Positions 7,909-64,000 of a stretch of DNA of 64,000 bases are shown here, piece after piece. The translations under genes were made by a program, and so were the position numbers. This DNA comes from Salminus brasiliensis (lineage: Eukaryota > Chordata > Actinopteri > Characiformes > Bryconidae). The notes beneath the pieces were generated by a model that did not search any database, was not told the origin of the DNA, and worked only from the letters and a program-made list of their open reading frames with translations. Position 1 is the first letter of the stretch. Each line of letters opens with the position of its first letter. The stretch spans positions 3,801,640 to 3,865,639 of the forward strand of contig NC_132901.1 in the NCBI RefSeq assembly GCF_030463535.1. Direction: 5' to 3'.

Positions 7909-8722
7909 GTAAAAATGGGTATAAGGAGCTCCAGCGTTGAGCTGTGGAGCTGTGGAGCTGTGCTTTATGGAATGATGGTGCTCCATCCAATAAGTCTGGG
8001 ATGAGTTGGGGATGAGGTGAGTTGGTGATAATCCTGAGCTGACTAACGCTCTCGTCACTGAATGCAATCAAATTCTCACAGCAGTGCTCCTCCAAATTTT
8101 AGTAGAAAGCCGTCTTCCCTGGCAGTAGAGAGAGTTACCCCAACAAAAGCAGGATCAACTCTTTTAAATGCCGTTAATTTTGGAAGAAGCAGTGAATGAA
8201 CAGGCGTCCCAATACTTTTGTCAATATAGTGTAGAGTCCCTAAAGTCTTTACAGGAAGCCCCAGCAGTGTGTGTAGCTGGGAATGGGTACACTTGACGTG
8301 CTTTGGCTTGCTTAAGGAAATTCCCATGTAAGGCTGGGAACTGTTTACCCTCGTCTTAATGACGACGACTCCGTCTGATAAATGATGAGAGTGAACGGCG
8401 GATTCTGGAAGGTGGGAAAGTTCACCACTGGTTTAATCTGCTGCTGTCTTAGAGGCCTGACACCAGTGTTTGTGGAAATGGGGGTCAGCAGAGCTCCGAG
8501 AGGGGGGTGGGACAGAGGGGCAGTTCACTCTTACAGTGAAGATGACCTCATTCCCTTTAAGCGCTAAGCGCTCCCCACTTCTCGTAGAGCTTAGAAGCCT
8601 TTTTTTGGACAGAAGCACCAAACAGTGTATGAACCAAAAGCCTGTGAAGCGGTTAGCCTTTAGCTCACTGCTGCGCTGAGTAGAAGCTGCTGCTGCTGCT
8701 GTGTTGATTGTGTGTGTTTCAG
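7909..8722 (+). other. Probable 3'-UTR intron of kinase A
   Basis: CAACAG|GTAAAA at 7908/7909 lies 22 nt after the stop codon. GTGTGTGTTTCAG ends at 8722 before GATTCCTCC. Together they predict an intron that removes the transposon-like repeat and about 490 bp of further sequence (a GCGCTAAGCGC motif near 8562, a CTG run near 8688). A stop only 22 nt before the junction would not be expected to trigger nonsense-mediated decay. This is inferred from splice signals only. Confidence 0.45.
7915..8233 (-). mobile_element. DNA-transposon-like (MITE-type) repeat fragment, module A
   Basis: The right end, CCCAATACTTTTGTCAATAT followed by AGTGTA, is the reverse complement of an ACACTATATTG...AAAAGTATTGGGAC terminus that I know from abundant teleost non-autonomous DNA transposons. 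The inner sequence (ACTCATCCCAGACTTATTGG on the - strand, and others) also looks like that family. I see no matching inverted repeat at the left end, so the copy is truncated or its left boundary is misplaced. Minus-strand open frames here are not genes. The higher-order repeat boundary falls inside it. The class is from memory and needs a repeat-library search. Confidence 0.55.
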
Positions 8723-9724
8723 GATTCCTCCTTTCCTCCATCCTTGGTTGCCTGGTTCCTCCAGAACTCATCCCTAGGTCATGCCATCTGCCAACTCCCG
8801 CCCCTTCTAGCCTCGACTCTGCCCCATCACTTTTTCCACACTCCTTGCCTTTACCTTCCCCTCTGGCCACACCTCGGACCGCTGCTTGAACCTTTGCACG
8901 TCTTCTGCCCTTAATCTGCGGACCCTCCTAGGCGTAGAGCTTGTTCCCCGAGCTCCGTCGCTCCCTCTCGCTGCAGTACCTCAGTTCCCTCGACCGTAGT
9001 CCATGCGCCCCTCCACTGTCAGTGCCTGGAGTAGAAGCCTCTGGACTGGCTCCTCCATTCTGCACGACTCCCCAGGTGCGTCGTCTTGCTGACCCGTCGC
9101 AGGATCGGCTGACCCTCCCTCGGCTTTCTCAGCTTTCCGTTATTCTGCTGTCTTCTAGCAGCCGGTCTCCACATTACGTCCGTCGTTAGTAAGAAGTACG
9201 TGTAGAAGTAGGGAAGGACTAAGAAGTACTTTTCCACAATCCGGCGCCAACCAGAGGAGGATGGGTTCCCCTACTGAGCCTGGGTTCCTCTCAAGGTTTC
9301 TTCCTGGCTTCTCAGGGAGTTTTTCCTTGCCACCGTTGCCCTCGGCTTGCTCCTTAGGGGTCTAGGCCTGGATTCTAGCCTTATTCACTAGCGACACAAC
9401 GGGCTAAATTCAATGGAGTATTTAATCGGACGTCCGTCTTACTTATCTGACCTCCATACTTTCAACCCCCACCCCCCTTACAGCCCCCTCTCATATTATC
9501 AGAAGCTGATGGCATGGTCTGAACTAACAGACTTATCCTCTGACCAATCTGACCTCCTATAAATTCCAGCTCCGTCCTTCTCCCACCAAGCAGAAGCCAC
9601 CTGAGCTCCAGCCCAGAGTTCTCAGAGTTCTCCCCCTTCCCTTACAGTCTCCTCCCATATGATCAGAAGCTGATGGCCTGGTCTGAACGCCCCTGATCAA
9701 AATAAAGATTTTTAGAGCACTGCT
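8723..9724 (+). other. Probable terminal 3'-UTR exon of kinase A
   Basis: No convincing coding frame is present. The segment 9250-9365 (GAGGAGGATGGGTTCCCCTA, TCTCAAGGTTTCTTCCTGGC, GGGAGTTTTTCCTTGCCACC) matches, from memory, a dispersed segment common in teleost 3' UTRs. A direct repeat AGAAGCTGATGGC.TGGTCTGAAC occurs near 9500 and 9665. The exon is bounded by the acceptor at 8722 and the AATAAA at 9701. Confidence 0.5.
9701..9706 (+). terminator. Poly(A) signal AATAAA, kinase A
   Basis: AATAAA is followed about 15-30 nt later by GCTCAGGTGAATGTGTTTAT, a plausible cleavage site with a GU-rich downstream element. The signal is kept in every module. Confidence 0.65.
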
Positions 9725-11831
9725 CAGGTGAATGTGTTTATTATCACTGATGATTCACTCCATTTCAGAAAGCATTACTGTACATCATACTGACGCTAAC
9801 AGCTAACAGCTAACAACGGTTCTACCTTCAGTGTTAGAACATGTGGAGGCATCTGGAGCCGAGCAGAGTCTTCAGAGCTGAAACGATGACCAGCTGTAGC
9901 CATAAGACACGTCTCTGGACAACTTGGCTATGATTAGTCAGATTCAGTGGTGGATTTATCTGTTTTACCTTCTGTTAAATGAGACATAAAATAATATGTC
10001 ATATAAACAACTAAACAGAGCCTAAATGCTAACTCCAGCCACACAAGAGAAGGGAGAATGGCTGGGCAGAGGCTAAAAGCTAATGCTAGATGCAAAATAG
10101 CAATCAGTGCTACAGTTATTAGTGCTGAAGGACTGAGATGCTAATCTACTTTTAATAGCTTTGGTAAAGCTAATGCTAGGCTGACCGCTACTGACTGTGC
10201 TGACTGGACACAGCGAGAACTTAGAAAGCAACACCATCCAGTAAGACTTGAGAATAGTTACAGCAAATACGTTTGTTCGGATTTGGATTTGCTACAGTTC
10301 TAAGCTACGCTACGCTAGGCTAGGTTGTGCTATGGTATGCGGCCAGTCAGTCATATACACTGAGTAATAACTGACGAGCTCCTTCAGGCAATAAACAGAC
10401 GCTAACGGCTAACTGCTGCCTCTGAGGTAAGAAAACACTTCATGAGGTAAAACTGATCCATTTCTGAGTGAATATTGGTAATATGTATCAGTTCTAACTG
10501 AATATTGATTATTTTAAAGCTTTAACTAAATCACTTTCACATTACTGTGGTAAAACGTCTGGTTATGACTGAGGACTTTAGCTAGCTAACAAGCTAACTA
10601 GCTGTAATGGAACGTAATGGCATTACTTTTATGCTAATGACCTTTAGGTATCAGATAGTGTGGTTTTAATTAGCATGAGGGAATTGTAGCTACGTAGCTA
10701 AGTAACATTATGTTGTAATGAAATCCGACTTTAATGGTTTAAACGAAGTTTTCAAATCTGAATCTTTTCACATCGCCAAGCTTTTTCACAACAGCCGTCC
10801 CCATTATCAGCCACTTCCCCGAAGTCAGCATTTCCACCCTAGATGCACAAGATTACTACGTTGTTGTCATCTATGATAAATATATCAAATATAACATGGA
10901 TATTTGACGTAGTTTAGCATGTGATTGTGATTTTTGTCATGTTACATTCCCATTAGTTAGCTAACTAGCTACGTCTTTTTTCAGTCATTAGCACGGGGAG
11001 CTAGCTAACCATAAACACTCATTCACACCATAAAAGTTTTTCAGGACGGGTTTGTGAGCATAAATGTGGGTATTTATTTATACATATTTAATATTTTTAT
11101 TTAATAGCTTTTTTGTTTTACTGTGGTGATGTTTTCAGATATTTTTGAAAATTTTTATTCTATATTTGAGTCTCTTTAAGTCTCTTTTCACTATACTGTT
11201 TTCCCCAAAATGACCCTTGCTGACCATAAAGCAGGGCTGATTTACCGTATTTTACCTCAGTAATCATATTTTTAAAAGGTTTAAAGATGACTGAAGTGCT
11301 GTTGATTCAGTATGAATTCAGGGTGCAAAAGTGACACTGAATCATCATCAGATTTGATAATTGATTCAGTAAATGATTCAATTAATTGATTCAATGAATT
11401 AACGTCAAAAGTTTAGCATTGACTCAACATCTGTTTAATGACTGATTGCTATCGGAGTAGAACTTGGTGGAGGAAGTGACTGATTGGAGAGGTAAGACTT
11501 GGCGGTAGTGCTAGATGACTAGTCTGACCTCACGTCTGGTCTCACGTCTGGTCTTCACTATTTTCTTTCCTCAAAATGACCCGGGCTGCATAAAGCAGGG
11601 TTGATTTACCGTATTTTACCTCAGTAATCAGATTTTTAAAAGGTTTAAAGATGACTGAGGTGGCGTCAATCTTCTGTTGATGTTTTGTTAAAATTTCAGG
11701 GTTGATTCAGTATGAATTTAGGGAGCAAAATTGACGATGAATCAACATAAGATTGGATTATTGATTCAAAGAATGACGTTAACGGCGAAACATTAACGTT
11801 GACTTAACATCTATTCAATGACTGATGAATG
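9725..11831. other. Spacer between modules A and B
   Basis: This is AT-rich sequence with many GCTAA/GCTAG steps (10030-10700, for example GCTAACAGCTAACAGCTAAC) and no supported gene. An internal duplication with a period of about 366 bp is visible: AAAATGACCC...AAAGCAGGG through TCAATGACTGAT near 11206-11450 and again near 11572-11828. Both halves include TTTTTAAAAGGTTTAAAGAT and several ATTGATTCA motifs. Confidence 0.75.
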
Positions 11832-11943
11832 CCTCATTAACACACACCTCAAACTGTAAGACTAACCCCATCAGAAACCTCATTAACACACACCTCAAAC
11901 AGTAACACTAACCCCATTAGAAACCTCATTAACACACACCTCA
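11832..11943. repeat. 46-bp minisatellite array 2 (collapsed, about 2.4 units)
   Basis: The flanks are the same as in the long arrays (GACTGATGAATG on the left, GGAACTCAAC on the right), but only 112 bp of repeat remain. This accounts for most of the shorter spacing between A and B. Confidence 0.92.
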
Positions 11944-14102: not shown

Positions 14103-14554
14103 GTTTGTCTTAGCGATTGACTTAGCAGCAGTCGTAGCGGTTCACTTAGCGACAGTCTTAGTGAACGTCTTAGTGGTAGTCTTAGCGGCAGTCTTAGTGA
14201 TTGTCTTAGTGACAGTTTTAGTCTCACTGACTGGCTTAGCGATTTAGTGACTACCGTAGTTATTGGCTTAGTCACAGCCTTAGCTATTAGCTTAGTCATA
14301 GTCTTAGAGACTAACTTAGTGATTGTCTTAGAGACAGTCTTAGGGATTGTCCTAGCCACTGGCTTAGTGACAGTTTTAGCTGTTGGCTTAGCATTAGACT
14401 TAGCCACTGGCCTAGCTTATAGTATTAGTGACTAGCTTAGCAATAGCGTTAGAGACAGTCTTAGCTATTGGCTTAGTCACATTCTTAGCTGTTGGCTTAG
14501 CGACAGTATTAGCAACTGGCTTAGCCACAGTGTTAGTTATTGTCTTAGCTGTAG
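14103..14554. repeat. 12-bp minisatellite, module B (short form)
   Basis: This array is 116 bp shorter than in A, C, D and F. The missing part lies exactly between two copies of ATCATAGTCTTAGAGACTAA, as expected for slippage or recombination between direct repeats. The deletion fuses the - strand pseudo-frame into one of 175 codons, which shows that frame length here is incidental. Confidence 0.88.
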
Positions 14555-14834: not shown

Positions 14835-16651
14835 ATGTTGGGCGGCGAAAGAGGAAAAGAAAGGAGGAGGGCAGCCAGAGGTTCTCACAGAGAACAACCG
14901 AGGTTGCCAGGAGTAAAAGCCCGGTAAGGAAGAGAAGGAAAGGAGAAGTTAGCCAGCCCAAGATAATGACCAGAAGACAGCGGAGCGACATCAAGCCAGG
15001 TTAGCTCATTGGCCAGACCACTGCACACAAGGAAGTGGTCCAGTATTTAGTGCAATAGCCTGTGCTGCTATTAGATAGACTCCTGAGAGACGATGGGGAG
15101 AGAGCTGATGTTCAGCTTCAACACTGTTTGTTTTCCACAGACACTTTTGCCTCTCTCTACGTCACTGGAGAGAAACTGGGAGAAGGAGGCTTCGGCGCCG
15201 TCTTCGAGGGAACCCGGGTTTCCGACGGCCTACAGGTTCTTAAATCACCCCTCCAGAACTTCATTATCTCATCTGTTCCCTTTTCAGTCCTCATAACATT
15301 CACACCTCGTCTCCTCTCTGTCTGCAGGTGGCCGTTAAATTCGTCACCAAGCGGGACGACGATGAATACGTCCAATGCGTAAGTGCACCTGGAAGCCAGG
15401 TTTTACTGTCCGATCACACATCACGCTCCCAGACTTCACTGCACTCACCTTTCCACCAACCTTGCCCTGCACTCCTGTTCCTGCAGCCTGTTCAGCTCAA
15501 GACCGTGCCCATGGAGGTGGCTCTAATGAACAGGATGAGCCAGCCACCCACCAGCAATGTGGTGAAGCTCATCGAGTGGTTCGATGAGCCTGAGCGCTAC
15601 ATCCTGGTCCTGGAGCGCCCAGATCCTTGTCAGGACTTGCAGTCCTTGATCGACCAGTGGGGAGGTTCGGTCAGTGAAGAGATAGCCAGGGACATCATGC
15701 TCCAGACGGTGGAGGCAGCAAGAACGTGCCACAAGCGAGGTGTCCTGCACAGAGACATCAAACTGGAGAACTTCCTGATCAACACAGACACCTCAGAGAT
15801 CAAGCTCATCGACTTCGGCTGCGGGGACTGGGTCAAGAAAGGCGGATACCGTGAATTTGCAGGTAAACTGGAGTCTAGGGACGAAATTTACACGTTACCT
15901 TAGAAACATGAGCCTGAGAGGACCCATTTGTCCCTCTCATAGCCACTTCACTGGAAAGGTAACGAGCTGGACGCTCTTCTTCTTTTATGTTCTCAGGCAC
16001 CTTTCAGTACTGCCCCCCAGAGTTCTTTCTAAAGGGGAGGTACCACGCCAGTCCTGCGACAGTCTGGTCTCTAGGAGTCCTACTGTTCAGGCTGGTTAGT
16101 GGACACCTTCCCTTTACAGACGAGCAGGAAATCGTGGAGGGGCTTCTGAGCTTCAAGGACCACCTATCCAATGGTGAGATATCTGAGAGCCTACTCGAGA
16201 GACTCTGAGAAGTTCAGGACGACGTGTTCTGCACGGTCGTCTTTCTGAAATGTACTTAAGTATCTCTCTCCCATCCAATCCAATCCCGTCCCTCTGCACA
16301 GAATGCTGCAATCTGATTAGGAGGTGTCTGCAGCGCAACCCATCCCAGAGGCCCAAAGTGAAGCAGATCCTGAAGCACGACTGGTTCCAGTGCAGCGTTC
16401 CTACCGAGGATCAGGTTAGCCATGGAAAATGAGAATGACTGCTTAGAGAAGAAACAGTAGAAGCTAAAATATCTAGAGTTGTGATCGAGGAGGCGAAGGA
16501 AAGAAAAACTACTAGAAATGAAGAGGAAGATCTGAATTCTAAGGATTTCTGATCCTTAGACGTGCTTCCGTCTCCAATGCGTATCTCCTGGGTTGTGTTT
16601 CAGGTCCTGAGAACAGAGCAGCCTTCAGAGCAGAGGAGACAAACCGTCTGA
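14835..16651 (+). CDS. PIM-family serine/threonine protein kinase, copy B
   Basis: Exons: 14835-14999, 15141-15235, 15328-15378, 15487-15862, 15997-16173, 16302-16414 and 16604-16651. The internal ATG is at 14966, and the candidate upstream exon is 14584-14611. From the ATG the protein is 297 residues with the glycine loop, Lys47, Glu70, the ERPDP hinge, HRD Asp150 and DFG Asp169 all intact. It differs from A at residue 65 (Lys for Arg) and residue 142 (His for Gln, just before the HRD loop). Upstream of the ATG, two substitutions relative to A (AGA to AGG, AAG to AAA) are both silent in the kinase frame but not in the competing ATG-TTG frame. This supports real coding across 14835-14965. The exon 4 acceptor tract is CCTGCAG rather than TTCCAG. 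Confidence 0.9.
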
Positions 16652-16679
16652 AGTTGGCCCGTTTCATCAACAGGTAAAA

Positions 16680-18484: not shown

Positions 18485-20592
18485 AGGTGAATGTGTTTAT
18501 TATCACTGATGATTCACTCCATTTCAGAAAGCATTACTGTACATCATACTGACGCTAACAGCTAACAGCTAACAACGGTTCTACCTTCAGTGTTAGAACA
18601 TGTGGAGGCATCTGGAGCCGAGCAGAGTCTTCAGAGCTGAAACGATGACCAGCTGTAGCCATAAGACACGTCTCTGGACAACTTGGCTATGATTAGTCAG
18701 ATTCAGTGGTGGATTTATCTGTTTTACCTTCTGTTAAATGAGACATAAAATAATATGTCATATAAACAATTAAACAGAGCCTAAATGCTAACTCCAGCCA
18801 CACAAGAGAAGGGAGAATGGCTGGGCAGAGGCTAAAAGCTAATGCTAGACGCAAAATAGCAATCAGTGCTACAGTTATTAGTGCTGAAGGACTGAGATGC
18901 TAATCTACTTTTAATAGCTTTGGTAAAGCTAACGCTAGGCTGACCGGCTACTGACTGTGCTGACTGGACACAGCGAGAACTTAGAAAGCAACACCATCCA
19001 GTAAGACTTGAGAATAGTTACAGCAAATACGTTTGTTCGGATTTGGATTTGCTACAGTTCTAAGCTACGCTACGCTAGGCTAGGTTGTGCTATGGTATGC
19101 GGCCAGTCAGTCATATACACTGAGTAATAACTGACGAGCTCCTTCAGGCAATAAACAGACGCTAACGGCTAACTGCTGCCTCTGAGGTAAAAAAACACTT
19201 CATGAGGTAAAACTGATCCATTTCTGAGTGAATATTGGCAATATGTATCAGTTCTAACTGAATATTGATTATTTTAAAGCTTTAACTAAATCACTTTCAC
19301 ATTACTGTGGTAAAACGTCTGGTTATGACTGAGGACTTTAGCTAGCTAACAAGCTAACTAGCTGTAATGGAACGTTAATGGCATTACTTTTATGCTAATG
19401 ACCTTTAGGTATTAGATAGTGTGGTTTTAATTAGCATGAGGGAATTGTAGCTACGTAGCTAAGTAACATTATGTTGTAATGAAATCCGACTTTAATGGTT
19501 TAAAAGAAGTTTTCAAATCTGAATCTTTTCACATGGCCAAGCTTTTTCACAACAGCCGTCCCCATTATCAGCCACTTCCCCGAAGTCAGCATTTCCGCCC
19601 TAGATGCACAAGATTACCACGTTGTTGTCATCTATGTCAAATATATCAAATATAACATGGATATTTGACGTAGTTTAGCATGTGATTGTGATTTTTGTCA
19701 TATTACATTCCCATTAGTTAGCTAACTAGCTACGTCTTTTTTCAGTCATTAGCACGGGGAGCTAGCTAACCATAAACGCTCATTCACACCATAAAAGTTT
19801 TTCAGGACGGGTTTGTGAGCATAAATGTGGGTATTTATTTATACATATTTCATATTTTTATTTAATAGCTTTTTTGTTTTACTGTGGTGATGTTTTCAGA
19901 TATTTTTAAAAATTTAATTCTATATTGGACAAGTTTCTTTAAGTCTCTTTTCACTATACTGTTTTCCCCAAAATGACCCTTGCTGACCATAAAGCAGGGC
20001 TGATTTACCGTATTTTACCTCAGTAATCAGATTTTTAAAAGGTTTAAAGATGACTGAAGTGCTGTTGATTCAGTATGAATTCAGGGTGCAAAAGTGACAC
20101 TGAATTATCATCAGATTAGATAATTGATTCAGTGAATGATTCAATTAATTGATTCAATGAATTAACGTCGACAGTTTAGCATTGACTCAACATCTGTTTA
20201 ATGACTGATTGCTATCGGAGTAGAACTTGGTGGAGGAAGTGACTGATTGGAGAGGTAAGACTTGGCGTTAGTGCTAGATGACTAGTCTGACCTCACGTCT
20301 GGTCTCACGTCTGATCTTCACTATTTCCTTTCCTCAAAATGACCTGTGCTGCATAAAGCAGGGTTGATTTACTATAATTTACCAGTAATCATATTTTTAA
20401 AAGGTTTAAAGATGTCTGAGGTGGCGTCGATCTTCTGTTGATGTTTTGTTAAAATTTCAGGGTTGATTCAGTATGAATTTAGGGAGCAAAATTGACGCTG
20501 AATCAACATAAGATTGGATTATGGATTCAATGAATGACGTTAACGGCGACAGTTTAACGTTGACTTAACATCTATTCAATGACTGATGAATG
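18485..20592. other. Spacer between modules B and C
   Basis: GCTA-rich and AT-rich with no gene. The roughly 366-bp internal duplication is present (near 19970 and 20336), with more divergence between halves than in A, for example GATTTACTATAATTTACCAG in the second half. Confidence 0.75.
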
Positions 20593-22537
20593 CCTCATTA
20601 ACACACACCTCAAACAGTAATACTAACCCCATCAGAAACCTCATTAACACACACCTCAAACAGTAACACTAACCCCATTAGAAACCGCAAACAGTAACAC
20701 TAAGCCCATCAGAAACTTCATTAACACACACCTCAAACAGTAACACTAACCCCATTAGAAACCTTATTAACACACCTCAAACAGTAACACTAACATCAGA
20801 AGAAACCTCATTAACACACACATCAAACAGTAAGACTAACCCCATTAGAAACTGCATTAACATAAACCTCAAACTGTAACACTAACCCCATTATAAACCT
20901 CATTACGACACACCTCAAACAGTAACACTAACCCCATTAGAAACCTCATTAACACACACCCCAAACAGTAACACTTACCCCATTAGAAACCTTATTAACA
21001 CACCTCAAACAGTAACACTAACACCAGAAGAAACCTCATTAACACACACCTCAAACAGTAAGACTAACCTCATTATAAACCGCAAAGAGTAACACTAAGC
21101 CCATTAGAAACCTCATTAACACACACCTCAAACAGTAACACTAACACCAGTAGAAACCTCATTAACACACACCTCAAACAGTAAAACTAACCCCATTAGA
21201 TACCTCATTAACACACACCTCAAACAGTAACACTAACCCAATCAGAAACCTCATTAACACACACCTCAAACAGTAACACTAACCCCATCAGAAACCTCAT
21301 TAACACATGCCTCAAACAATAATACTAACCCCATTATAAATCTCATTACGACACACCTCAAACAGTAACACTAACCCCAGTCGAAATCTGATTAACACAC
21401 ACCTCAAACAGTAAGACTAACCTCATTAGAAACCTTATTAACACACCTCAAACAGTAACACTAACACCAGAAGAAACCTCATTAACACACACCTCAAACA
21501 GTAAGACTAACCTCATTAGAAACCGCAAAGAGTAACACTAAGCCCATCAGAAACCTCATTAACACACACCTCAAACAATAACACTAACCCCATCAGAAAC
21601 CTCATTAACACACACCACAAACAGTAACACTAACCCCATTATAAACCTCATTAACACACACCTCAAACAGTAACACTAACCCCATTAGAAACTTCATTAA
21701 CACACACCGCAAACAGTAACAATAACCCCATTAGAAACTTCATTAACACACACCTCAAACATTAACACTCACCCCATTAGAAACCTCATTAACACACATC
21801 TTAAACAGTAACACTAATCCCATTAGAAACTTCATTAACACACACCTCAAACATTAACACTCACCCCATTAGAAACCTCATTAACACACACCTCAAACAG
21901 TAAAACTAACCCCATTAAAAACTGCATTAACATACACATCAAACAGGAATACTAACCCCATTAGAAACCTCATTAACACACACCACAAACAGTAACACTA
22001 ACCCCAGTAGAAACCTCATCAACACACACCTCAAACAGTAACACTAACCCCATCAGAAACCTCATTAACACACACCTCAAACAGTAAGAATATCCCCATG
22101 AGAAACTTCATTAACACACACCTCAAACAGTAACACTAACCCCATTAGAAACCTTATTAACACACCTTAAACAGTAACACTAACCCCATTAGATACCTCA
22201 TTAACACACACATCAAACATTAACACTCACCCCATGAGAAACTTCATTAACACACACCTCAAACATTAACACTCACCCCATTAGAAACCTCATTAACACA
22301 CACCTCAAACTGTAACACTAACCCCAGTAGAAACCTCATCAACACACACCTCAAACAGTAAGAATATCCCCATGAGAAACTTCATTAACACACACCTCAA
22401 ACAGTAACACTAACCCCATTAGAAACCTCATTAACACACACCTCAAACAGTAACACTAACCCCATTAGAAACCTCATTAACACACACCTCAAACAGTAAC
22501 ACTAACCCCATTAGAAACCTCATTAACACACACCTCA
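20593..22537. repeat. 46-bp minisatellite array 3 (1,945 bp, about 42 units)
   Basis: Same unit as array 1. The three-unit block containing CCGCAAAGAGTAACACTAAG occurs near 20975-21100 and again near 21425-21545, and matches blocks in array 1. Units become more regular toward the right end. Confidence 0.93.
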
Positions 22538-24670: not shown

Positions 24671-25238
24671 GTTTGTCTTAGCGATTGACTTAGCAGCAGT
24701 CGTAGCGGTTCACTTAGCGATAGTCTTAGTGAACGTCTTAGTGGTAGTCTTAGCGACAGTCTTAGTGATTGTCTTAGTGACAGTTTTAGTCTCACTGACT
24801 GGCTTAGCGATTTAGTGACTACCGTAGTTATTGGCTTGGTCACAGCCTTAGCTATTAGCTTAGTCATAGTCTTAGAGACTAAACTGGTGATTGTCCTAGC
24901 GACAGTCTCACTGATTGGCTTAGCGACTTAGCGACTGTCGTAGTTTTTGGCTTAGTCACAGTCTTAGCTACTACCTTAATCATAGTCTTAGAGACTAACT
25001 CAGTGATTGTCTTAGAGACAGTCTTAGGGATTGTCCTAGCCACTGGCTTAGTGACAGTTTTAGCTGTTGGCTTAGCATTAGACTTAGCCACTGGTTTAGC
25101 TTATAGTATTAGTGACTAGCTTAGCAATAGCGTTAGAGACAGTCTTAGCTATTGGCTTAGTCACATTCTTAGCTGTTGGCTTAGCGACAGTATTAGCAAC
25201 TGGCTTAGCCACAGTGTTAGTTATTGTCTTAGCTGTAG
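24671..25238. repeat. 12-bp minisatellite, module C (long form)
   Basis: Same length as in A (568 bp), including the 116 bp missing from B. It differs from A by few substitutions, for example AGCTTAGTCATAG. Confidence 0.88.
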
Positions 25239-25518: not shown

Positions 25519-27335
25519 ATGTTGGGCGGCGAAAGAGGAAAAGAAAGGAGGAGGGCAGCCAGAGGTTCTCACAGAGAACAACCGAGGTTGCCAGAAGTAA
25601 AAGCCCGGTAAGGAAGAGAAGGAAGGGAGAAGTTAGCCAGCCCAAGATAATGACCAGAAGACAGCGGAGCGACATCAAGCCAGGTTAGCTCATTGGCCAG
25701 ACCACTGCACACAAGGAAGTGGTCCAGTATTTAGTGCAATAGCCTGTGCTGCTAATAGATAGACTCCTGAGAGATGATGGGGAGAGAGCTGATGTTCAGC
25801 TTCAACACTGTTTGTTTTCCACAGACACTTTTGCCTCTCTCTACGTCACTGGAGAGAAACTGGGAGAAGGAGGCTTCGGCGCCGTCTTCGAGGGAACCCG
25901 GGTTTCCGACGGCCTACAGGTTCTTAAATCACCCCTCCAGAACTTCATTATCTCATCTGTTCCCTTTTCAGTCCTCATAACATTCACACCTCGTCTCCTC
26001 TCTGTCTGCAGGTGGCCGTTAAATTCGTCACCAAGCGGGACGACGATGAATACGTCCAATGCGTAAGTGCACCTGGAAGCCAGGTTTTACTGTCCGATCA
26101 CACATCACGCTCCCAGACTTCACTGCACTCACCTTTCCACCAACCTTGCCCTGCGTTTCTGTTCTTCCAGCCTGTTCAGCTCAGGACCGTGCCCATGGAG
26201 GTGGCTCTAATGAACAGGATGAGCCAGCCACCCACCAGCAATGTGGTGAAGCTCATCGAGTGGTTCGACGAGCCTGAGCGCTACATCCTGGTCCTGGAGC
26301 GCCCAGATCCTTGCCAGGACTTGCAGTCCTTGATCGACCAGTGGGGAGGTTCGGTAAGTGAAGAGATAGCCAGGGACATCATGCTCCAGACGGTGGAGGC
26401 AGCAAGAACGTGCCAGAAGCGAGGTGTCCTGCACAGAGACATCAAACTGGAGAACTTCCTGATCAACACAGACACCTCAGAGATCAAGCTGATCGACTTC
26501 GGCTGCGGGGACTGGGTCAAGAAAGGCGGATACCGTGAATTTGCAGGTAAACTGGAGTCTAGGGACGAAATTTACACGTTACCTTAGAAACATGAGTCTG
26601 AGAGGACCCATGTGTCCCTCTCATGGCCACTTCACTGGAAAGGTAACGAGCTGGACGCTCTTCTTCTTTTATGTTCTCAGGCACCTTTCAGTACTGCCCC
26701 CCAGAGTTCTTTCTAAAGGGGAGGTACCACGCCAGTCCTGCGACAGTCTGGTCTCTAGGAGTCCTACTGTTCAGGCTGGTTAGTGGACACCTTCCCTTTA
26801 CAGACGAGCAGGAAATCGTGGAGGGGCTTCTGAGCTTCAAGGACCACCTATCCAATGGTGAGATATCTGAGAGCCTCCTCGAGAGACTCTTAGAAGTTCA
26901 GGACGACGTGTTCTGCACGGTCATCTTTCTGAAATGTACTTAAGTATCTCTCTCACATCCAATCCAATCCCGTCCCTCTGCACAGAATGCTGCAATCTGA
27001 TTAGGAGGTGTCTGCAGCGCAACCCATCCCAGAGGCCCAAAGTGAAGCAGATCCTGAAGCACGACTGGTTCCAGTGCAGCGTTCCTACCGAGGATCAGGT
27101 TAGCCATGGAAAATGAGAATGACTGCTTAGAGAAAAAACAGTAGAAGCTAAAATATCTAGAGTTGTGATCGAGGAGGCGAAGGAAAGAAAAACTACTAGA
27201 AATGAAGAGGAAGATCTGAATTTTAAGGATTTCTGATCCTTAGACGTGCTTCCGTCTCCAATGCGTATCTCCTGGGTTGTGTTTCAGGTCCTGAGAACAG
27301 AGCAGCCTTCAGAGCAGAGGAGACAAACCGTCTGA
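25519..27335 (+). CDS. PIM-family serine/threonine protein kinase, copy C
   Basis: Exons: 25519-25683, 25825-25919, 26012-26062, 26171-26546, 26681-26857, 26986-27098 and 27288-27335. The internal ATG is at 25650 and the candidate upstream exon is 25268-25295. The predicted protein is identical to A (Arg65, Gln142), with all kinase motifs present. The oddity is in exon 4: the Val codon of GGSVSEE is GTA, not GTC, so the DNA reads TCG|GTAAGT, a near-consensus splice donor at 26354. If used and joined to exon 5, the frame shifts and stops within about 12 codons, before the HRD and DFG loops, giving a dead kinase. Whether it is used cannot be told from sequence. Confidence 0.9.
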
Positions 27336-30921: not shown

Positions 30922-32691
30922 CCTCATTAACACACACCTCAAACAGTAACACTAACCCCACCAGAAACCTCATTAACACACACCACAAACATTAACACTA
31001 ACCCCATCAGAAACCTCCTTAACACACCTGAAACATTAACACTAACCCATCAGAAACATCATTAACACACACCTCAAACAGTAATACTAACCCCATCAGA
31101 AACCTCATTAACACACACCTCAAACATTAACACTAACCCCATCAGAAACCTCATTAACACACCTGAAACATTAACACTAACCCATCAGAAACATCATTAA
31201 CACACACCTCAAACAGTAACACTAACCCCATCAGAAACCTCATTAACACACACCTCAAACAGTAAGACTAACCCCATGAGAAACTTCATTAAAACACACC
31301 TCAAACAGTAACACTAACCCCATTAGAAACCTTATTAACACACCTCAAACAGTAACACTAACATCAGAAGAAACCTCATTAACACACACCTCAAACAGTA
31401 AGACTAACCTCATTAGAAACCGCTAAGAGTAACACTAAGCCCATCAGAAACTTCATTAACACACACCTCAAACAATAACACTAACCCCATTAGAAACCTC
31501 ATTAACACACACCTCAAACAGTAACACTAACCCCATTAGATACCTCATTAACACACACCTCAAACATTAACACTAACCCCATTAGAAACTGCATTAACAT
31601 AAAACTCAAACTGTAACACTAACCTCATTATAAACCTCATTACGACACACCTCAAACAGTAACACTAACCCCATTAGAAACCTCATTAACACACACCTCA
31701 GAAATTCCTACTAACCCCATTAGAAACCTCATTAACACACACCTCAAACAGTAACACTTACCCCATTAGAAACCTTATTAACACACCTCAAACAGTAACA
31801 CTAACACCAGAAGAAACCTCATTAACACACACCTCAAACAGTAAGACTAACCTCATTAGAAACCGCAAAGAGTAACACTAAGCCCATCAGAAACTTCATT
31901 AACACACACCTCAAACAATAACACTAACCCCATTAGAAACCTCATTAACACACCTCAAACAATAACATTAACCCCATTAGAAACCTCATTAACACACACC
32001 TCAAACAGTAACACTAACCCCATTAGAAACCTCATTAACACACACCACAAACAGTAACAATAACCCCATTAGAAACCTCATTAACACACACCTCAAACAG
32101 TAACACTAACCCCATTAGAAACCTCATTACCACGCACCGCAAACAGTAATACTAACCCCATGAGAAACTTCATTAACACACACCTCAAACATTAACACTC
32201 ACCCCATTAGAAACCTCATTAACACACACCTCAAACTGTAACACTAACCCCAGTAGAAACCTCATTACCACGCACCGCAAACAGTAATACTAACCCCATG
32301 AGAAACTTCATTAACACACACCTCAAACAGTAAAACTAACCCCATTAGATACCTCATTAACACACACCTCAAACAGTAAGAATATCCCCATGAGAAACTT
32401 CATTAACACACACCTCAAACAGTAACACTAACCCCATTAGAAACCTTATTAACACACCTTAAACAGTAACACTAACCCCATTAGATACCTCATTAACACA
32501 CACCTTAAACAGTAACACTAACCCCATTAGAAACCTCATTAACACACACATCAAACAGTAACACTAACCCCATTAGAAACCTCATTAACACACACCTCAA
32601 ACATTAACACTAACCCCATTAGAAACCTCATTAACACACACCTCAAACATTAACACTAACCCCATTAGAAACCTCATTAACACACACCTCA
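30922..32691. repeat. 46-bp minisatellite array 4 (1,770 bp, about 38 units)
   Basis: The left part contains a local two-unit variant with ACCTGAAACATTAACACTAA repeated near 31025 and 31165. The three-unit block with CCGCAAAGAG or CCGCTAAGAG appears near 31315-31440 and 31755-31880. The right end has near-identical units. Confidence 0.93.
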
Positions 32692-41406: not shown

Positions 41407-41518
41407 CCTCATTAACACACACCTCAAACTGTAAGACTAACCCCATCAGAAACCTCATTAACACACACCTCAAACAGTAACACTAACCCCATTAGAAACC
41501 TCATTAACACACACCTCA
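41407..41518. repeat. 46-bp minisatellite array 5 (collapsed, about 2.4 units)
   Basis: Identical to array 2 in length and sequence. Confidence 0.92.
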
Positions 41519-43677: not shown

Positions 43678-44129
43678 GTTTGTCTTAGCGATTGACTTAG
43701 CAGCAGTCGTAGCGGTTCACTTAGCGACAGTCTTAGTGAACGTCTTAGTGGTAGTCTTAGCGGCAGTCTTAGTGATTGTCTTAGTGACAGTTTTAGTCTC
43801 ACTGACTGGCTTAGCGATTTAGTGACTACCGTAGTTATTGGCTTAGTCACAGCCTTAGCTATTAGCTTAGTCATAGTCTTAGAGACTAACTTAGTGATTG
43901 TCTTAGAGACAGTCTTAGGGATTGTCCTAGCCACTGGCTTAGTGACAGTTTTAGCTGTTGGCTTAGCATTAGACTTAGCCACTGGCCTAGCTTATAGTAT
44001 TAGTGACTAGCTTAGCAATAGCGTTAGAGACAGTCTTAGCTATTGGCTTAGTCACATTCTTAGCTGTTGGCTTAGCGACAGTATTAGCAACTGGCTTAGC
44101 CACAGTGTTAGTTATTGTCTTAGCTGTAG
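43678..44129. repeat. 12-bp minisatellite, module E (short form)
   Basis: Carries the same 116-bp deletion as module B. Confidence 0.88.
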
Positions 44130-44409: not shown

Positions 44410-46226
44410 ATGTTGGGCGGCGAAAGAGGAAAAGAAAGGAGGAGGGCAGCCAGAGGTTCTCACAGAGAACAACCGAGGTTGCCAGGAGTAAAAGCCCGGT
44501 AAGGAAGAGAAGGAAAGGAGAAGTTAGCCAGCCCAAGATAATGACCAGAAGACAGCGGAGCGACATCAAGCCAGGTTAGCTCATTGGCCAGACCACTGCA
44601 CACAAGGAAGTGGTCCAGTATTTAGTGCAATAGCCTGTGCTGCTATTAGATAGACTCCTGAGAGACGATGGGGAGAGAGCTGATGTTCAGCTTCAACACT
44701 GTTTGTTTTCCACAGACACTTTTGCCTCTCTCTACGTCACTGGAGAGAAACTGGGAGAAGGAGGCTTCGGCGCCGTCTTCGAGGGAACCCGGGTTTCCGA
44801 CGGCCTACAGGTTCTTAAATCACCCCTCCAGAACTTCATTATCTCATCTGTTCCCTTTTCAGTCCTCATAACATTCACACCTCGTCTCCTCTCTGTCTGC
44901 AGGTGGCCGTTAAATTCGTCACCAAGCGGGACGACGATGAATACGTCCAATGCGTAAGTGCACCTGGAAGCCAGGTTTTACTGTCCGATCACACATCACG
45001 CTCCCAGACTTCACTGCACTCACCTTTCCACCAACCTTGCCCTGCACTCCTGTTCCTGCAGCCTGTTCAGCTCAAGACCGTGCCCATGGAGGTGGCTCTA
45101 ATGAACAGGATGAGCCAGCCACCCACCAGCAATGTGGTGAAGCTCATCGAGTGGTTCGATGAGCCTGAGCGCTACATCCTGGTCCTGGAGCGCCCAGATC
45201 CTTGTCAGGACTTGCAGTCCTTGATCGACCAGTGGGGAGGTTCGGTCAGTGAAGAGATAGCCAGGGACATCATGCTCCAGACGGTGGAGGCAGCAAGAAC
45301 GTGCCACAAGCGAGGTGTCCTGCACAGAGACATCAAACTGGAGAACTTCCTGATCAACACAGACACCTCAGAGATCAAGCTCATCGACTTCGGCTGCGGG
45401 GACTGGGTCAAGAAAGGCGGATACCGTGAATTTGCAGGTAAACTGGAGTCTAGGGACGAAATTTACACGTTACCTTAGAAACATGAGCCTGAGAGGACCC
45501 ATTTGTCCCTCTCATAGCCACTTCACTGGAAAGGTAACGAGCTGGACGCTCTTCTTCTTTTATGTTCTCAGGCACCTTTCAGTACTGCCCCCCAGAGTTC
45601 TTTCTAAAGGGGAGGTACCACGCCAGTCCTGCGACAGTCTGGTCTCTAGGAGTCCTACTGTTCAGGCTGGTTAGTGGACACCTTCCCTTTACAGACGAGC
45701 AGGAAATCGTGGAGGGGCTTCTGAGCTTCAAGGACCACCTATCCAATGGTGAGATATCTGAGAGCCTACTCGAGAGACTCTGAGAAGTTCAGGACGACGT
45801 GTTCTGCACGGTCGTCTTTCTGAAATGTACTTAAGTATCTCTCTCCCATCCAATCCAATCCCGTCCCTCTGCACAGAATGCTGCAATCTGATTAGGAGGT
45901 GTCTGCAGCGCAACCCATCCCAGAGGCCCAAAGTGAAGCAGATCCTGAAGCACGACTGGTTCCAGTGCAGCGTTCCTACCGAGGATCAGGTTAGCCATGG
46001 AAAATGAGAATGACTGCTTAGAGAAGAAACAGTAGAAGCTAAAATATCTAGAGTTGTGATCGAGGAGGCGAAGGAAAGAAAAACTACTAGAAATGAAGAG
46101 GAAGATCTGAATTCTAAGGATTTCTGATCCTTAGACGTGCTTCCGTCTCCAATGCGTATCTCCTGGGTTGTGTTTCAGGTCCTGAGAACAGAGCAGCCTT
46201 CAGAGCAGAGGAGACAAACCGTCTGA
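44410..46226 (+). CDS. PIM-family serine/threonine protein kinase, copy E (twin of B)
   Basis: Exons: 44410-44574, 44716-44810, 44903-44953, 45062-45437, 45572-45748, 45877-45989 and 46179-46226. The internal ATG is at 44541 and the candidate upstream exon is 44159-44186. Exons and introns look identical to copy B, including Lys65, His142 and the silent differences in the basic N-terminal extension. I found no difference by eye, so short reads could not separate the two loci. Confidence 0.9.
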
Positions 46227-46254
46227 AGTTGGCCCGTTTCATCAACAGGTAAAA

Positions 46255-50167: not shown

Positions 50168-52112
50168 CCTCATTAACACACACCTCAAACAGTAATACTA
50201 ACCCCATCAGAAACCTCATTAACACACACCTCAAACAGTAACACTAACCCCATTAGAAACCGCAAACAGTAACACTAAGCCCATCAGAAACTTCATTAAC
50301 ACACACCTCAAACAGTAACACTAACCCCATTAGAAACCTTATTAACACACCTCAAACAGTAACACTAACATCAGAAGAAACCTCATTAACACACACATCA
50401 AACAGTAAGACTAACCCCATTAGAAACTGCATTAACATAAACCTCAAACTGTAACACTAACCCCATTATAAACCTCATTACGACACACCTCAAACAGTAA
50501 CACTAACCCCATTAGAAACCTCATTAACACACACCCCAAACAGTAACACTTACCCCATTAGAAACCTTATTAACACACCTCAAACAGTAACACTAACACC
50601 AGAAGAAACCTCATTAACACACACCTCAAACAGTAAGACTAACCTCATTATAAACCGCAAAGAGTAACACTAAGCCCATTAGAAACCTCATTAACACACA
50701 CCTCAAACAGTAACACTAACACCAGTAGAAACCTCATTAACACACACCTCAAACAGTAAAACTAACCCCATTAGATACCTCATTAACACACACCTCAAAC
50801 AGTAACACTAACCCAATCAGAAACCTCATTAACACACACCTCAAACAGTAACACTAACCCCATCAGAAACCTCATTAACACATGCCTCAAACAATAATAC
50901 TAACCCCATTATAAATCTCATTACGACACACCTCAAACAGTAACACTAACCCCAGTCGAAATCTGATTAACACACACCTCAAACAGTAAGACTAACCTCA
51001 TTAGAAACCTTATTAACACACCTCAAACAGTAACACTAACACCAGAAGAAACCTCATTAACACACACCTCAAACAGTAAGACTAACCTCATTAGAAACCG
51101 CAAAGAGTAACACTAAGCCCATCAGAAACCTCATTAACACACACCTCAAACAATAACACTAACCCCATCAGAAACCTCATTAACACACACCACAAACAGT
51201 AACACTAACCCCATTATAAACCTCATTAACACACACCTCAAACAGTAACACTAACCCCATTAGAAACTTCATTAACACACACCGCAAACAGTAACAATAA
51301 CCCCATTAGAAACTTCATTAACACACACCTCAAACATTAACACTCACCCCATTAGAAACCTCATTAACACACATCTTAAACAGTAACACTAATCCCATTA
51401 GAAACTTCATTAACACACACCTCAAACATTAACACTCACCCCATTAGAAACCTCATTAACACACACCTCAAACAGTAAAACTAACCCCATTAAAAACTGC
51501 ATTAACATACACATCAAACAGGAATACTAACCCCATTAGAAACCTCATTAACACACACCACAAACAGTAACACTAACCCCAGTAGAAACCTCATCAACAC
51601 ACACCTCAAACAGTAACACTAACCCCATCAGAAACCTCATTAACACACACCTCAAACAGTAAGAATATCCCCATGAGAAACTTCATTAACACACACCTCA
51701 AACAGTAACACTAACCCCATTAGAAACCTTATTAACACACCTTAAACAGTAACACTAACCCCATTAGATACCTCATTAACACACACATCAAACATTAACA
51801 CTCACCCCATGAGAAACTTCATTAACACACACCTCAAACATTAACACTCACCCCATTAGAAACCTCATTAACACACACCTCAAACTGTAACACTAACCCC
51901 AGTAGAAACCTCATCAACACACACCTCAAACAGTAAGAATATCCCCATGAGAAACTTCATTAACACACACCTCAAACAGTAACACTAACCCCATTAGAAA
52001 CCTCATTAACACACACCTCAAACAGTAACACTAACCCCATTAGAAACCTCATTAACACACACCTCAAACAGTAACACTAACCCCATTAGAAACCTCATTA
52101 ACACACACCTCA
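50168..52112. repeat. 46-bp minisatellite array 6 (1,945 bp)
   Basis: Same length and variant order as array 3 wherever compared, with no unit gained or lost. Confidence 0.93.
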
Positions 52113-54245: not shown

Positions 54246-54813
54246 GTTTGTCTTAGCGATTGACTTAGCAGCAGTCGTAGCGGTTCACTTAGCGATAGTC
54301 TTAGTGAACGTCTTAGTGGTAGTCTTAGCGACAGTCTTAGTGATTGTCTTAGTGACAGTTTTAGTCTCACTGACTGGCTTAGCGATTTAGTGACTACCGT
54401 AGTTATTGGCTTGGTCACAGCCTTAGCTATTAGCTTAGTCATAGTCTTAGAGACTAAACTGGTGATTGTCCTAGCGACAGTCTCACTGATTGGCTTAGCG
54501 ACTTAGCGACTGTCGTAGTTTTTGGCTTAGTCACAGTCTTAGCTACTACCTTAATCATAGTCTTAGAGACTAACTCAGTGATTGTCTTAGAGACAGTCTT
54601 AGGGATTGTCCTAGCCACTGGCTTAGTGACAGTTTTAGCTGTTGGCTTAGCATTAGACTTAGCCACTGGTTTAGCTTATAGTATTAGTGACTAGCTTAGC
54701 AATAGCGTTAGAGACAGTCTTAGCTATTGGCTTAGTCACATTCTTAGCTGTTGGCTTAGCGACAGTATTAGCAACTGGCTTAGCCACAGTGTTAGTTATT
54801 GTCTTAGCTGTAG
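54246..54813. repeat. 12-bp minisatellite, module F (long form)
   Basis: Copy of the module C array. Confidence 0.88.
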
Positions 54814-55093: not shown

Positions 55094-56910
55094 ATGTTGG
55101 GCGGCGAAAGAGGAAAAGAAAGGAGGAGGGCAGCCAGAGGTTCTCACAGAGAACAACCGAGGTTGCCAGAAGTAAAAGCCCGGTAAGGAAGAGAAGGAAG
55201 GGAGAAGTTAGCCAGCCCAAGATAATGACCAGAAGACAGCGGAGCGACATCAAGCCAGGTTAGCTCATTGGCCAGACCACTGCACACAAGGAAGTGGTCC
55301 AGTATTTAGTGCAATAGCCTGTGCTGCTAATAGATAGACTCCTGAGAGATGATGGGGAGAGAGCTGATGTTCAGCTTCAACACTGTTTGTTTTCCACAGA
55401 CACTTTTGCCTCTCTCTACGTCACTGGAGAGAAACTGGGAGAAGGAGGCTTCGGCGCCGTCTTCGAGGGAACCCGGGTTTCCGACGGCCTACAGGTTCTT
55501 AAATCACCCCTCCAGAACTTCATTATCTCATCTGTTCCCTTTTCAGTCCTCATAACATTCACACCTCGTCTCCTCTCTGTCTGCAGGTGGCCGTTAAATT
55601 CGTCACCAAGCGGGACGACGATGAATACGTCCAATGCGTAAGTGCACCTGGAAGCCAGGTTTTACTGTCCGATCACACATCACGCTCCCAGACTTCACTG
55701 CACTCACCTTTCCACCAACCTTGCCCTGCGTTTCTGTTCTTCCAGCCTGTTCAGCTCAGGACCGTGCCCATGGAGGTGGCTCTAATGAACAGGATGAGCC
55801 AGCCACCCACCAGCAATGTGGTGAAGCTCATCGAGTGGTTCGACGAGCCTGAGCGCTACATCCTGGTCCTGGAGCGCCCAGATCCTTGCCAGGACTTGCA
55901 GTCCTTGATCGACCAGTGGGGAGGTTCGGTAAGTGAAGAGATAGCCAGGGACATCATGCTCCAGACGGTGGAGGCAGCAAGAACGTGCCAGAAGCGAGGT
56001 GTCCTGCACAGAGACATCAAACTGGAGAACTTCCTGATCAACACAGACACCTCAGAGATCAAGCTGATCGACTTCGGCTGCGGGGACTGGGTCAAGAAAG
56101 GCGGATACCGTGAATTTGCAGGTAAACTGGAGTCTAGGGACGAAATTTACACGTTACCTTAGAAACATGAGTCTGAGAGGACCCATGTGTCCCTCTCATG
56201 GCCACTTCACTGGAAAGGTAACGAGCTGGACGCTCTTCTTCTTTTATGTTCTCAGGCACCTTTCAGTACTGCCCCCCAGAGTTCTTTCTAAAGGGGAGGT
56301 ACCACGCCAGTCCTGCGACAGTCTGGTCTCTAGGAGTCCTACTGTTCAGGCTGGTTAGTGGACACCTTCCCTTTACAGACGAGCAGGAAATCGTGGAGGG
56401 GCTTCTGAGCTTCAAGGACCACCTATCCAATGGTGAGATATCTGAGAGCCTCCTCGAGAGACTCTTAGAAGTTCAGGACGACGTGTTCTGCACGGTCGTC
56501 TTTCTGAAATGTACTTAAGTATCTCTCTCACATCCAATCCAATCCCGTCCCTCTGCACAGAATGCTGCAATCTGATTAGGAGGTGTCTGCAGCGCAACCC
56601 ATCCCAGAGGCCCAAAGTGAAGCAGATCCTGAAGCACGACTGGTTCCAGTGCAGCGTTCCTACCGAGGATCAGGTTAGCCATGGAAAATGAGAATGACTG
56701 CTTAGAGAAAAAACAGTAGAAGCTAAAATATCTAGAGTTGTGATCGAGGAGGCGAAGGAAAGAAAAACTACTAGAAATGAAGAGGAAGATCTGAATTTTA
56801 AGGATTTCTGATCCTTAGACGTGCTTCCGTCTCCAATGCGTATCTCCTGGGTTGTGTTTCAGGTCCTGAGAACAGAGCAGCCTTCAGAGCAGAGGAGACA
56901 AACCGTCTGA
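55094..56910 (+). CDS. PIM-family serine/threonine protein kinase, copy F (twin of C)
   Basis: Exons: 55094-55258, 55400-55494, 55587-55637, 55746-56121, 56256-56432, 56561-56673 and 56863-56910. The internal ATG is at 55225 and the candidate upstream exon is 54843-54870. The protein is identical to A and C. It shares with C the silent GTA codon that makes an internal TCG|GTAAGT donor at 55929. The one difference from C that I found is in intron 5: G at 56498 against A at 26923. B and D also have G there, while A has A. This shows that F is not a pure digital copy of C. Confidence 0.9.
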
Positions 56911-56938
56911 AGTTGGCCCGTTTCATCAACAGGTAAAA

Positions 56939-60496: not shown

Positions 60497-62266
60497 CCTC
60501 ATTAACACACACCTCAAACAGTAACACTAACCCCACCAGAAACCTCATTAACACACACCACAAACATTAACACTAACCCCATCAGAAACCTCCTTAACAC
60601 ACCTGAAACATTAACACTAACCCATCAGAAACATCATTAACACACACCTCAAACAGTAATACTAACCCCATCAGAAACCTCATTAACACACACCTCAAAC
60701 ATTAACACTAACCCCATCAGAAACCTCATTAACACACCTGAAACATTAACACTAACCCATCAGAAACATCATTAACACACACCTCAAACAGTAACACTAA
60801 CCCCATCAGAAACCTCATTAACACACACCTCAAACAGTAAGACTAACCCCATGAGAAACTTCATTAAAACACACCTCAAACAGTAACACTAACCCCATTA
60901 GAAACCTTATTAACACACCTCAAACAGTAACACTAACATCAGAAGAAACCTCATTAACACACACCTCAAACAGTAAGACTAACCTCATTAGAAACCGCTA
61001 AGAGTAACACTAAGCCCATCAGAAACTTCATTAACACACACCTCAAACAATAACACTAACCCCATTAGAAACCTCATTAACACACACCTCAAACAGTAAC
61101 ACTAACCCCATTAGATACCTCATTAACACACACCTCAAACATTAACACTAACCCCATTAGAAACTGCATTAACATAAAACTCAAACTGTAACACTAACCT
61201 CATTATAAACCTCATTACGACACACCTCAAACAGTAACACTAACCCCATTAGAAACCTCATTAACACACACCTCAGAAATTCCTACTAACCCCATTAGAA
61301 ACCTCATTAACACACACCTCAAACAGTAACACTTACCCCATTAGAAACCTTATTAACACACCTCAAACAGTAACACTAACACCAGAAGAAACCTCATTAA
61401 CACACACCTCAAACAGTAAGACTAACCTCATTAGAAACCGCAAAGAGTAACACTAAGCCCATCAGAAACTTCATTAACACACACCTCAAACAATAACACT
61501 AACCCCATTAGAAACCTCATTAACACACCTCAAACAATAACATTAACCCCATTAGAAACCTCATTAACACACACCTCAAACAGTAACACTAACCCCATTA
61601 GAAACCTCATTAACACACACCACAAACAGTAACAATAACCCCATTAGAAACCTCATTAACACACACCTCAAACAGTAACACTAACCCCATTAGAAACCTC
61701 ATTACCACGCACCGCAAACAGTAATACTAACCCCATGAGAAACTTCATTAACACACACCTCAAACATTAACACTCACCCCATTAGAAACCTCATTAACAC
61801 ACACCTCAAACTGTAACACTAACCCCAGTAGAAACCTCATTACCACGCACCGCAAACAGTAATACTAACCCCATGAGAAACTTCATTAACACACACCTCA
61901 AACAGTAAAACTAACCCCATTAGATACCTCATTAACACACACCTCAAACAGTAAGAATATCCCCATGAGAAACTTCATTAACACACACCTCAAACAGTAA
62001 CACTAACCCCATTAGAAACCTTATTAACACACCTTAAACAGTAACACTAACCCCATTAGATACCTCATTAACACACACCTTAAACAGTAACACTAACCCC
62101 ATTAGAAACCTCATTAACACACACATCAAACAGTAACACTAACCCCATTAGAAACCTCATTAACACACACCTCAAACATTAACACTAACCCCATTAGAAA
62201 CCTCATTAACACACACCTCAAACATTAACACTAACCCCATTAGAAACCTCATTAACACACACCTCA
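60497..62266. repeat. 46-bp minisatellite array 7 (1,770 bp)
   Basis: Same length and variant order as array 4. Confidence 0.93.
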
Positions 62267-64000
62267 GGAACTCAACAAATGTAAACCCATTACATCACAT
62301 CTTCTCCACCTCATTAAACCCTTCTTATTTTACACCACCTTCATCATCTACTACCACACCACATCCTCCCTCACGAACAGACCCAATTCCTCAGATTCGG
62401 ACTCAACCCAGAACAGTCCTCCTTACCAACTATCCTACAGCACTGGACCTCTTCACTGGTTCAGAAGCTCGCTCTTCCACACTCTTCCCTAGACTACAGC
62501 TGATCTCTGAGCTGAAACTATCCCTTTAATCAATGCTCTCGTCTGGACTACGGTGGACTGATGCTAGCGTAGCACTCTTCCTGTAAACCATGTGATCCAC
62601 CAAGCCCATTTCAGTCCACTTCAGGAGGTGGAAACATCTGCTCATCTCCAGACTTTTAATTCAGACAAGGCCTTGATTCAGCCCATCTGCTTTCAGCCAT
62701 CCAGACAAGGCCTTGATTTGGGAAGCTCATACAGTATCTTCATCTAGATGAAGAAGCGTCTTTCAGAGAAGAGCACAGAAGGTGTATTAGCTTTGACCTT
62801 GTCCTGAAACAGTGTCCATATCACTACACACTAATTCAGCCGCTCAGCCATACTGTCCCCGCCTCACTGAGAGACTACAGCATGTAGGAGTCAGCAGGAG
62901 CCCCGTCCAGTATGCTAGCAATACAGCAGTGTGTTGTGTGTATTCATGTTGGTAGATGTAGAATGGTCTTCGTAGCCGTGTTCCTCAGCCGGGTCCATTA
63001 CAACGCATAGCACCAGGAAGTTCCTACAGGAGGAACCTCAACGGTGGGGTGGTTAGCCTCTGAAGAACTGTAGCATTCAGATAATGGACTATATTGTAGA
63101 TATTTTCAACAGCTGGACACATCGGCCGACTGTATGATTCTCTACACAATATATTTATATATACATATACTGCCTGGCCACCACTAGATTTAACTTAGCA
63201 AATACATAAGAGCTTCCCATTGGATAATTGTAGCCTTAAGAAAACCACTTGCTAGTGAGGCTAACCGGCAGAAACGGCTTTAGTTGCTAAGGACAGAGAT
63301 TTATCGTACAGAGGTAGATCTACTTCACTACTGTACTAAAGTACTAAAATACTGTATCTGTATCTACTGGAGTATTATATACTTTTTTACTTCACTACAT
63401 ATTTTAGTGTTTACATTGTTTATGTGCTGCATCGTTACTCGTTACAATTATAACAAACCATTTCAAACCCACATCATCACCTCCAGAGCACTAGATGGCG
63501 CTGTCACCGGGTTTGATGAAGCCGCCTCAGCATTGTACAGAAAATGTTGAGCACCTGAGTGCCACTCAAGTCACTTTTACTCAAGTCTGGGTCTCTAGTG
63601 CTTTATACGTGTCTGGTTTAGCCTGCTACGTTATTTAGCATTAGACTATTAGCCAACGTTAGCCTGACATAAGCCAATGAATGTGGAAGACCCTTATTCA
63701 TGGATGGGAGACCCGAGTTCCCTTCCTAGCTGAAGGCTACACCAATGAAACTGGGAAGGTCTTCTTGCTAACTTCCTGTTAGTGATCATGATGGACTACA
63801 GCTGGTAGCTTCTCAACGCCCACATTACTAGCCCTGAGTGGACTGACCAACACACAGTGCAACGGGAAAGTCCAGGGAGGTCAGTGCAGATCTGAGGAGG
63901 ACGACTGTAGTAGACGTGTGCTGCTGAAGAGTGTCCCTACATGCAACAGCTGCATCTCCTACAGACAGCAGCTAAGACAGTACGCCACCTACTGGTCAAC
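62267..64000. other. Module G 5' flank, cut by window end
   Basis: Copy of the D flank with the same indel states, including the 37-bp deletion. The palindrome is at 62737-62754. By the 29,575-bp offset the next kinase body would begin near 65220, outside the window. Confidence 0.8.
63488..63995. promoter_or_regulatory. Convergent CTCF-like motif pair, module G
   Basis: The + motif is at 63488-63501 and the - motif at 63982-63995. Confidence 0.45.

Follow-up and report, generated by a model that had tools for sequence, protein, structure and literature searches.

Probable recent tandem duplication of a three-gene block in an array of PIM-like kinase genes in Salminus brasiliensis

The sequence analysed here is a 64,000-nucleotide stretch of the Salminus brasiliensis genome (the window; contig NC_132901.1, hereafter C28, positions 3,801,640-3,865,639), which lies within an array of PIM-like protein kinase genes and carries a three-gene block repeated at an offset of 29,575 bp. 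Its own assembly, GCF_030463535.1, holds 1,066,335,885 bases in 103 contigs, and flanks were added around the window to cover C28:3,620,001-3,915,600, 295.6 kb with 0 N. Searching this region with peptides of the five kinase exons revealed 17 complete five-exon sets over about 195 kb (C28:3,673,473-3,868,453), all 17 on the forward strand and head-to-tail; we named the genes K1-K17 by their order in the array. The kinase exons are open at matching relative places in every gene, AG precedes each exon, and GT follows all but the fifth, which closes with a stop codon; this rules out an array of pseudogenes. An upstream K/R-rich exon has its donor in all 17 as well. Together the 17 genes hold 12 distinct kinase coding sequences and six distinct kinase-domain proteins.

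In window coordinates, and on the forward strand throughout, the five kinase exons of K11 run to the stop codon at 6376-7667, those of K12 lie within 15141-16432 (15141-15235, 15328-15378, 15487-15862, 15997-16173 and 16302-16432), and those of K13, K14, K15 and K16 lie within 25825-27116, 35951-37242, 44716-46007 and 55400-56691, with open exons and splice sites. The K/R-rich exon of K12 (14835-14999, forward strand) is open and conserved in a paralogue on contig C11, 30 of 54 compared residues being identical. An earlier sequence-only reading of the window had placed an intact kinase gene in every repeated module; the exons are indeed open throughout, but the window holds six genes (K11-K16), and K17, which belongs to the last module, falls past base 64000 and could not have been read there.

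The best solved relative of K12 was human PIM1 (E 3.2e-73), in an alignment that spans the length of the kinase domain (query 4-264), and the K12 protein matched Pfam Pkinase at 3.4e-59. PIM-1 or PIM-2 took the 42 best-scoring places among 291 PDB sequences, followed by MARK3 at 1.3e-35 (among the best 60 shown). The glycine loop, the catalytic lysine, HRD, DFG and an ERPDP hinge of the ERPxP type are present in the PIM1 alignment and in the 17 translations. By alignment, the array kinases are predicted members of the PIM family, closest to PIM1 and PIM2, and they are probably active. Within the array, mean dN (nonsynonymous divergence) was 0.0020 and mean dS (synonymous divergence) 0.0173, a ratio of 0.12 over 136 non-independent pairs; for the kinase exons, comparison with one C11 paralogue gave dN 0.103, dS 0.451 and dN/dS 0.23. 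Because of these two ratios the genes look constrained, which fits purifying selection on the kinase. The K/R-rich exon gave dN 0.267 and dS 0.523 against the C11 paralogue, where both this exon and an upstream stretch with YWST are recognisable. The ATG of the peptide MTRRQR is a doubtful start codon, since at this place the C11 paralogue has ITTRRQR and the open, conserved frame extends further upstream. No Rfam family was found at gathering score and no tRNA was found, and nine non-kinase open reading frames of one module had no Pfam match at cut-off.

The modules that carry these genes are irregular in length, 8.8-18 kb, while their 8.15-kb cores share a mean identity of 97.07% (range 92.5-100%, 136 pairs). 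A 46-bp minisatellite precedes each of the 17 genes, and much of the irregularity in gene spacing comes from the length of this spacer. Counted with a 20-base marker allowing up to 3 substitutions, it has 2 to 193 units, from K1 to K17: 21, 82, 29, 17, 17, 69, 37, 32, 100, 193, 153, 2, 43, 36, 2, 43 and 36; after K17 none was counted in the flank to 3,915,600. The minisatellite before K11 occupies window positions 1-3069 and continues to the left (153 units in all), and those before K12 (about 2 units, 11832-11943), K13 (43 units, 20593-22537) and K14 (36 units, 30922-32691) have copies before K15 (41407-41518), K16 (50168-52112) and K17 (60497-62266), respectively.

A comparison of the window with itself found 29,575 to be the commonest offset, with 27,987 shared 24-mer pairs, the next being 9,220. 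From 8179 to 34425, the last comparable base, only four ungapped mismatches occur in 26,247 bp, at 10857, 10876, 10877 and 26923. Extended on the chromosome, the comparison of 3,809,818-3,839,721 with 3,839,393-3,869,296 gave the same four mismatches and no indels over 29,904 bp. The recurrence at this offset, as well as its left edge at exactly 8179, had thus been read correctly. The left copy corresponds to window 8179-38082 and the right copy to 37754-67657, ending beyond the window edge; the copies overlap by 329 bp because 29,904 exceeds 29,575. On the forward strand, block 1 (8179-37753) consists of the 3' flank of K11 followed by the K12, K13 and K14 modules up to the 329-bp tract, and differs from block 2 by the four mismatches over 29,904 bp; within the window (37754-64000) block 2 comprises K15, K16 and the part of the K17 module upstream of its gene, and on the chromosome it goes on to window-equivalent 67328, the last shared tract reaching 67657. 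Modules within a block differ, as the sequence-only reading had also said: the cores of K12, K13 and K14 are 98.7-98.9% identical to each other, whereas K15 is a 100.00% copy of K12 and K16 a 99.99% copy of K13. The minisatellite unit counts are equal in both blocks (2, 43, 36).

The block spacings are 8765-10684-10126 bp. Among the ten spacings before K11 (14377, 10568, 13413, 13126, 14024, 10640, 10412, 13609, 18049 and 16338 bp) this order is not repeated, and no kinase exon was found 3' of K17 in 47 kb of flank, to 3,915,600; these two results rule out the further blocks that had been thought possible on both sides, as far as the assembly goes. The block is a three-gene unit present twice in 295.6 kb, as K12-K13-K14 and K15-K16-K17. 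What survives of the proposed satellite-like higher-order repeat is a gene-bearing tandem repeat whose blocks are more alike than its modules; two copies do not make it satellite-like, and the locus reads as one recent segmental duplication within a longer irregular array.

The edges of the repeat point to how it may have arisen. The 329-bp tract stands on the forward strand 3' of K11 (8179-8507) and 3' of K14 at the block junction (37754-38082), and is identical in K11, K14 and K17. To its left, 2970 of 3000 positions are the same in K11 and K14, and to its right K14 and K17 are 97.2% identical over 3,604 aligned columns, tract included, as expected if K14 is a hybrid module. K14 does combine a K17-like coding part with a K11-like 3' flank around the identical tract, and for this reason we regard it as the hybrid. 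Since the tract follows the coding exons on their 3' side and is not part of the minisatellite, the 46-bp minisatellite is ruled out as the crossover site. As the most probable origin, in which we have good though not complete confidence, we propose that a single unequal homologous crossover duplicated three modules in tandem very recently, inside a PIM-like array with ongoing short-tract conversion. The putative crossover tract in the 3' flank of K11 would have paired with the same tract of the then-last gene, now K17, and the exchange would have yielded K11-K12-K13-[hybrid K14]-K15-K16-K17, the array growing from 14 to 17 genes, with K11 as the left neighbour outside the duplication. We infer both the crossover itself and its direction from this arrangement. 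Short-tract gene conversion between modules would have acted before the crossover and probably after it too.

The four differences between the blocks bear on this last step. At 3,812,496, 3,812,515 and 3,812,516 the left copy agrees with K10 (T, A, T) and the right copy with K12 and K15 (C, T, C); at 3,828,562 K13 has A, as K11 does, and K16 has G, as do the other modules. All four are variants present in other modules, and neither block showed a base of its own, pointing to short gene conversion tracts, although alleles or polishing swaps could explain them too. We further applied a four-gamete test to K1-K14 (137 informative sites; K15-K17 excluded as recent copies). Conflict between neighbouring sites was 0.239 against a permuted mean of 0.292 (standard deviation 0.0085), with 0 of 1000 permutations as low, and it rose with distance, from 2% below 50 bp to 6% at 50-100, 22% at 100-200, 26% at 200-500 and 41% at 500-1000 bp. 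Because conflict is low between neighbours and rises in this way, the modules seem to exchange short tracts. Mutation rates of 0.5-1 x 10^-8 per generation, together with the lack of any private substitution in 29,904 sites, would make the duplication younger than about 5,000-10,000 generations; conversion could hide its age.

Several points weigh against this account of the locus. The duplication is read from one assembly; no start codon of the array kinase genes was found; conflict in the four-gamete test is uneven beyond 1 kb (28% at 1-2 kb, 46% at 2-4 kb, 16% at 4-6 kb); the four differences could also stem from alleles or from polishing with paralogous reads; and the equal minisatellite counts fit an assembly duplicate as well. 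The last two bring up an assembly artefact, in which each haplotype has a single three-module stretch that was written twice, because the assembler looped at the shared tract or set both haplotypes in a row. The near-perfect identity, minisatellite lengths included, would fit this, and the four paralogue-type variants resemble polishing errors or alleles. However, the junction tract is just 329 bp long with differing bases near on both sides, and such a short tract should not mislead long reads; moreover, the 295.6 kb run without N across a 9.4-kb minisatellite, suggesting, though not proving, a long-read assembly. From two haplotypes one would also expect more than four differences in 29,904 sites, and minisatellites of unequal length. 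We therefore consider an artefact unlikely.

A true higher-order macrosatellite, with many block copies in the animal and just two in the assembly, is much less probable still. Common accurate long reads do not reach the length of the block, and further identical copies could therefore have collapsed, and gene-bearing macrosatellites are known in mammals. Yet the assembly has two copies, the period is not shared by the spacings before K11, and neither kinase exons nor 46-bp units continue after K17. Genome-wide searches agree: 39 of 124 candidates were scored in a DNA search and 150 of 425 in a protein search with the main kinase exon, whose match counts are lower bounds, and among the candidates scored the best matches outside C28 reached 81% and 77%, respectively. 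Homogenisation of two old three-module blocks by long gene-conversion tracts can be set aside as scarcely credible: conversion between modules is evident, but nearly 30 kb, including spacers of equal unit number, would have had to be copied in an array whose mosaic decays within a few hundred bases, and a single crossover is simpler.

Taken as a recent duplication by unequal crossover, the locus clearly illustrates, at a young stage, a process already known, the ordinary growth of a gene cluster, and not a new kind of structure. It offers a snapshot of a large vertebrate gene family growing, with the 329-bp crossover tract, the hybrid module and copies already separated by variants common to other modules. 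PIM kinases are always active and controlled mostly by their amount; extra gene copies could thus act directly through dosage, and would act mainly by raising it. Copy-number variation between individuals is plausible. A bolder proposal, to which we give perhaps one chance in a few, is that the array works as a living kinase cassette of variable copy number, where crossover at shared 3' tracts adds and removes three-gene blocks; if so, individuals would differ in the dosage of this kinase type. Since the genes of the two blocks are hardly distinguishable, mapping of short reads and annotation of genes will probably fail here.

Other repeats accompany the modules. A stretch of 12-bp repeats lies upstream of K12 at 14107-14549, with equivalents at 5226-5784, 24675-25233, 34801-35359, 43682-44124 and 54250-54808, and has open frames on both strands. 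These repeats had been called promoter-proximal, but exon-like stretches in common with the C11 paralogue lie on both sides, so the repeats may be intronic. That paralogue has a repeat-like stretch at the matching place, and the 12-bp repeats may for this reason be older than the array. Every kinase gene (17/17) has 26-30 CTTAG motifs at 500-1500 bp upstream. A dispersed repeat of about 250 bp (window 20330-20588) occurs in the modules and matches many other contigs at about 70-81%; it is perhaps a transposable element. Elsewhere in the array, a 5.2-kb stretch of K6/K7 (C28:3,738,898-3,744,074) is repeated at an offset of 10,640, with exact matches of 1,220 and 3,956 bp and one differing base between them, and appears to be another young single-module event. 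Just right of the array are two further minisatellites, at C28:3,875,814-3,881,543 (about 5.7 kb) and C28:3,909,265-3,910,846 (period near 68 bp).

The protein search revealed at least 69 genome matches to the main kinase exon at E<=1e-10, at least 17 of them on C28, at least 6 on C11, at least 35 on C5 and at least 11 elsewhere. Those on C5 (33,167,777-37,614,380) are main PIM-like exon matches spread across 4.4 Mb on both strands; five have an in-frame TGA in common. C11:36,421,998-36,475,809 holds at least six PIM-like genes that are 74-77% identical to those of the C28 array; five share a strand and one is reversed. On C6 and C2 there are three relatives of canonical appearance, with only 39-44% identity in the main exon.

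Zebrafish reportedly has a large PIM family, going by a 2014 title of Rakshambikai et al. cited in PMC5763363. Like vertebrate PIM1-3 and the zebrafish PIM-like family, the array kinases align to human PIM1 over the kinase domain with glycine loop, ERPDP hinge, HRD and DFG in line, whereas the compact one-strand row of 17 near-identical genes, the 46-bp minisatellite between them and the recent three-gene duplication are the array's own. Gene-bearing macrosatellites such as D4Z4, RS447/USP17 and TSPY likewise consist of kilobase-scale, gene-containing units set head-to-tail, and the modules here are 97% alike on average; in contrast, these modules are irregular (8.8-18 kb) from their minisatellite spacers, and the 29,575-bp order occurs just twice. 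Our literature searches found no paper on a fish PIM tandem array; 'pim' is absent from the passages available of PMC5041008, PMC10183018, PMC3464592 and PMC4177888, and in those of PMC3359783, on fugu kinases, PIM appears just in a reference and a table. Unequal crossing over is described in textbook terms, in a passage of PMC3464592, as a main source of tandem duplication, and a passage of PMC13431229 reports a tandem bias of vertebrate segmental duplications. Zebrafish NLR genes, as far as the passages of PMC5041008 describe them, form a tandem cluster grown by unequal crossover and conversion, and resemble the present array in head-to-tail paralogues, irregular spacing, mosaics and young duplications at several scales. 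They belong to another gene family, and a further difference is that in the present array the youngest event has left its crossover tract and hybrid module directly legible.

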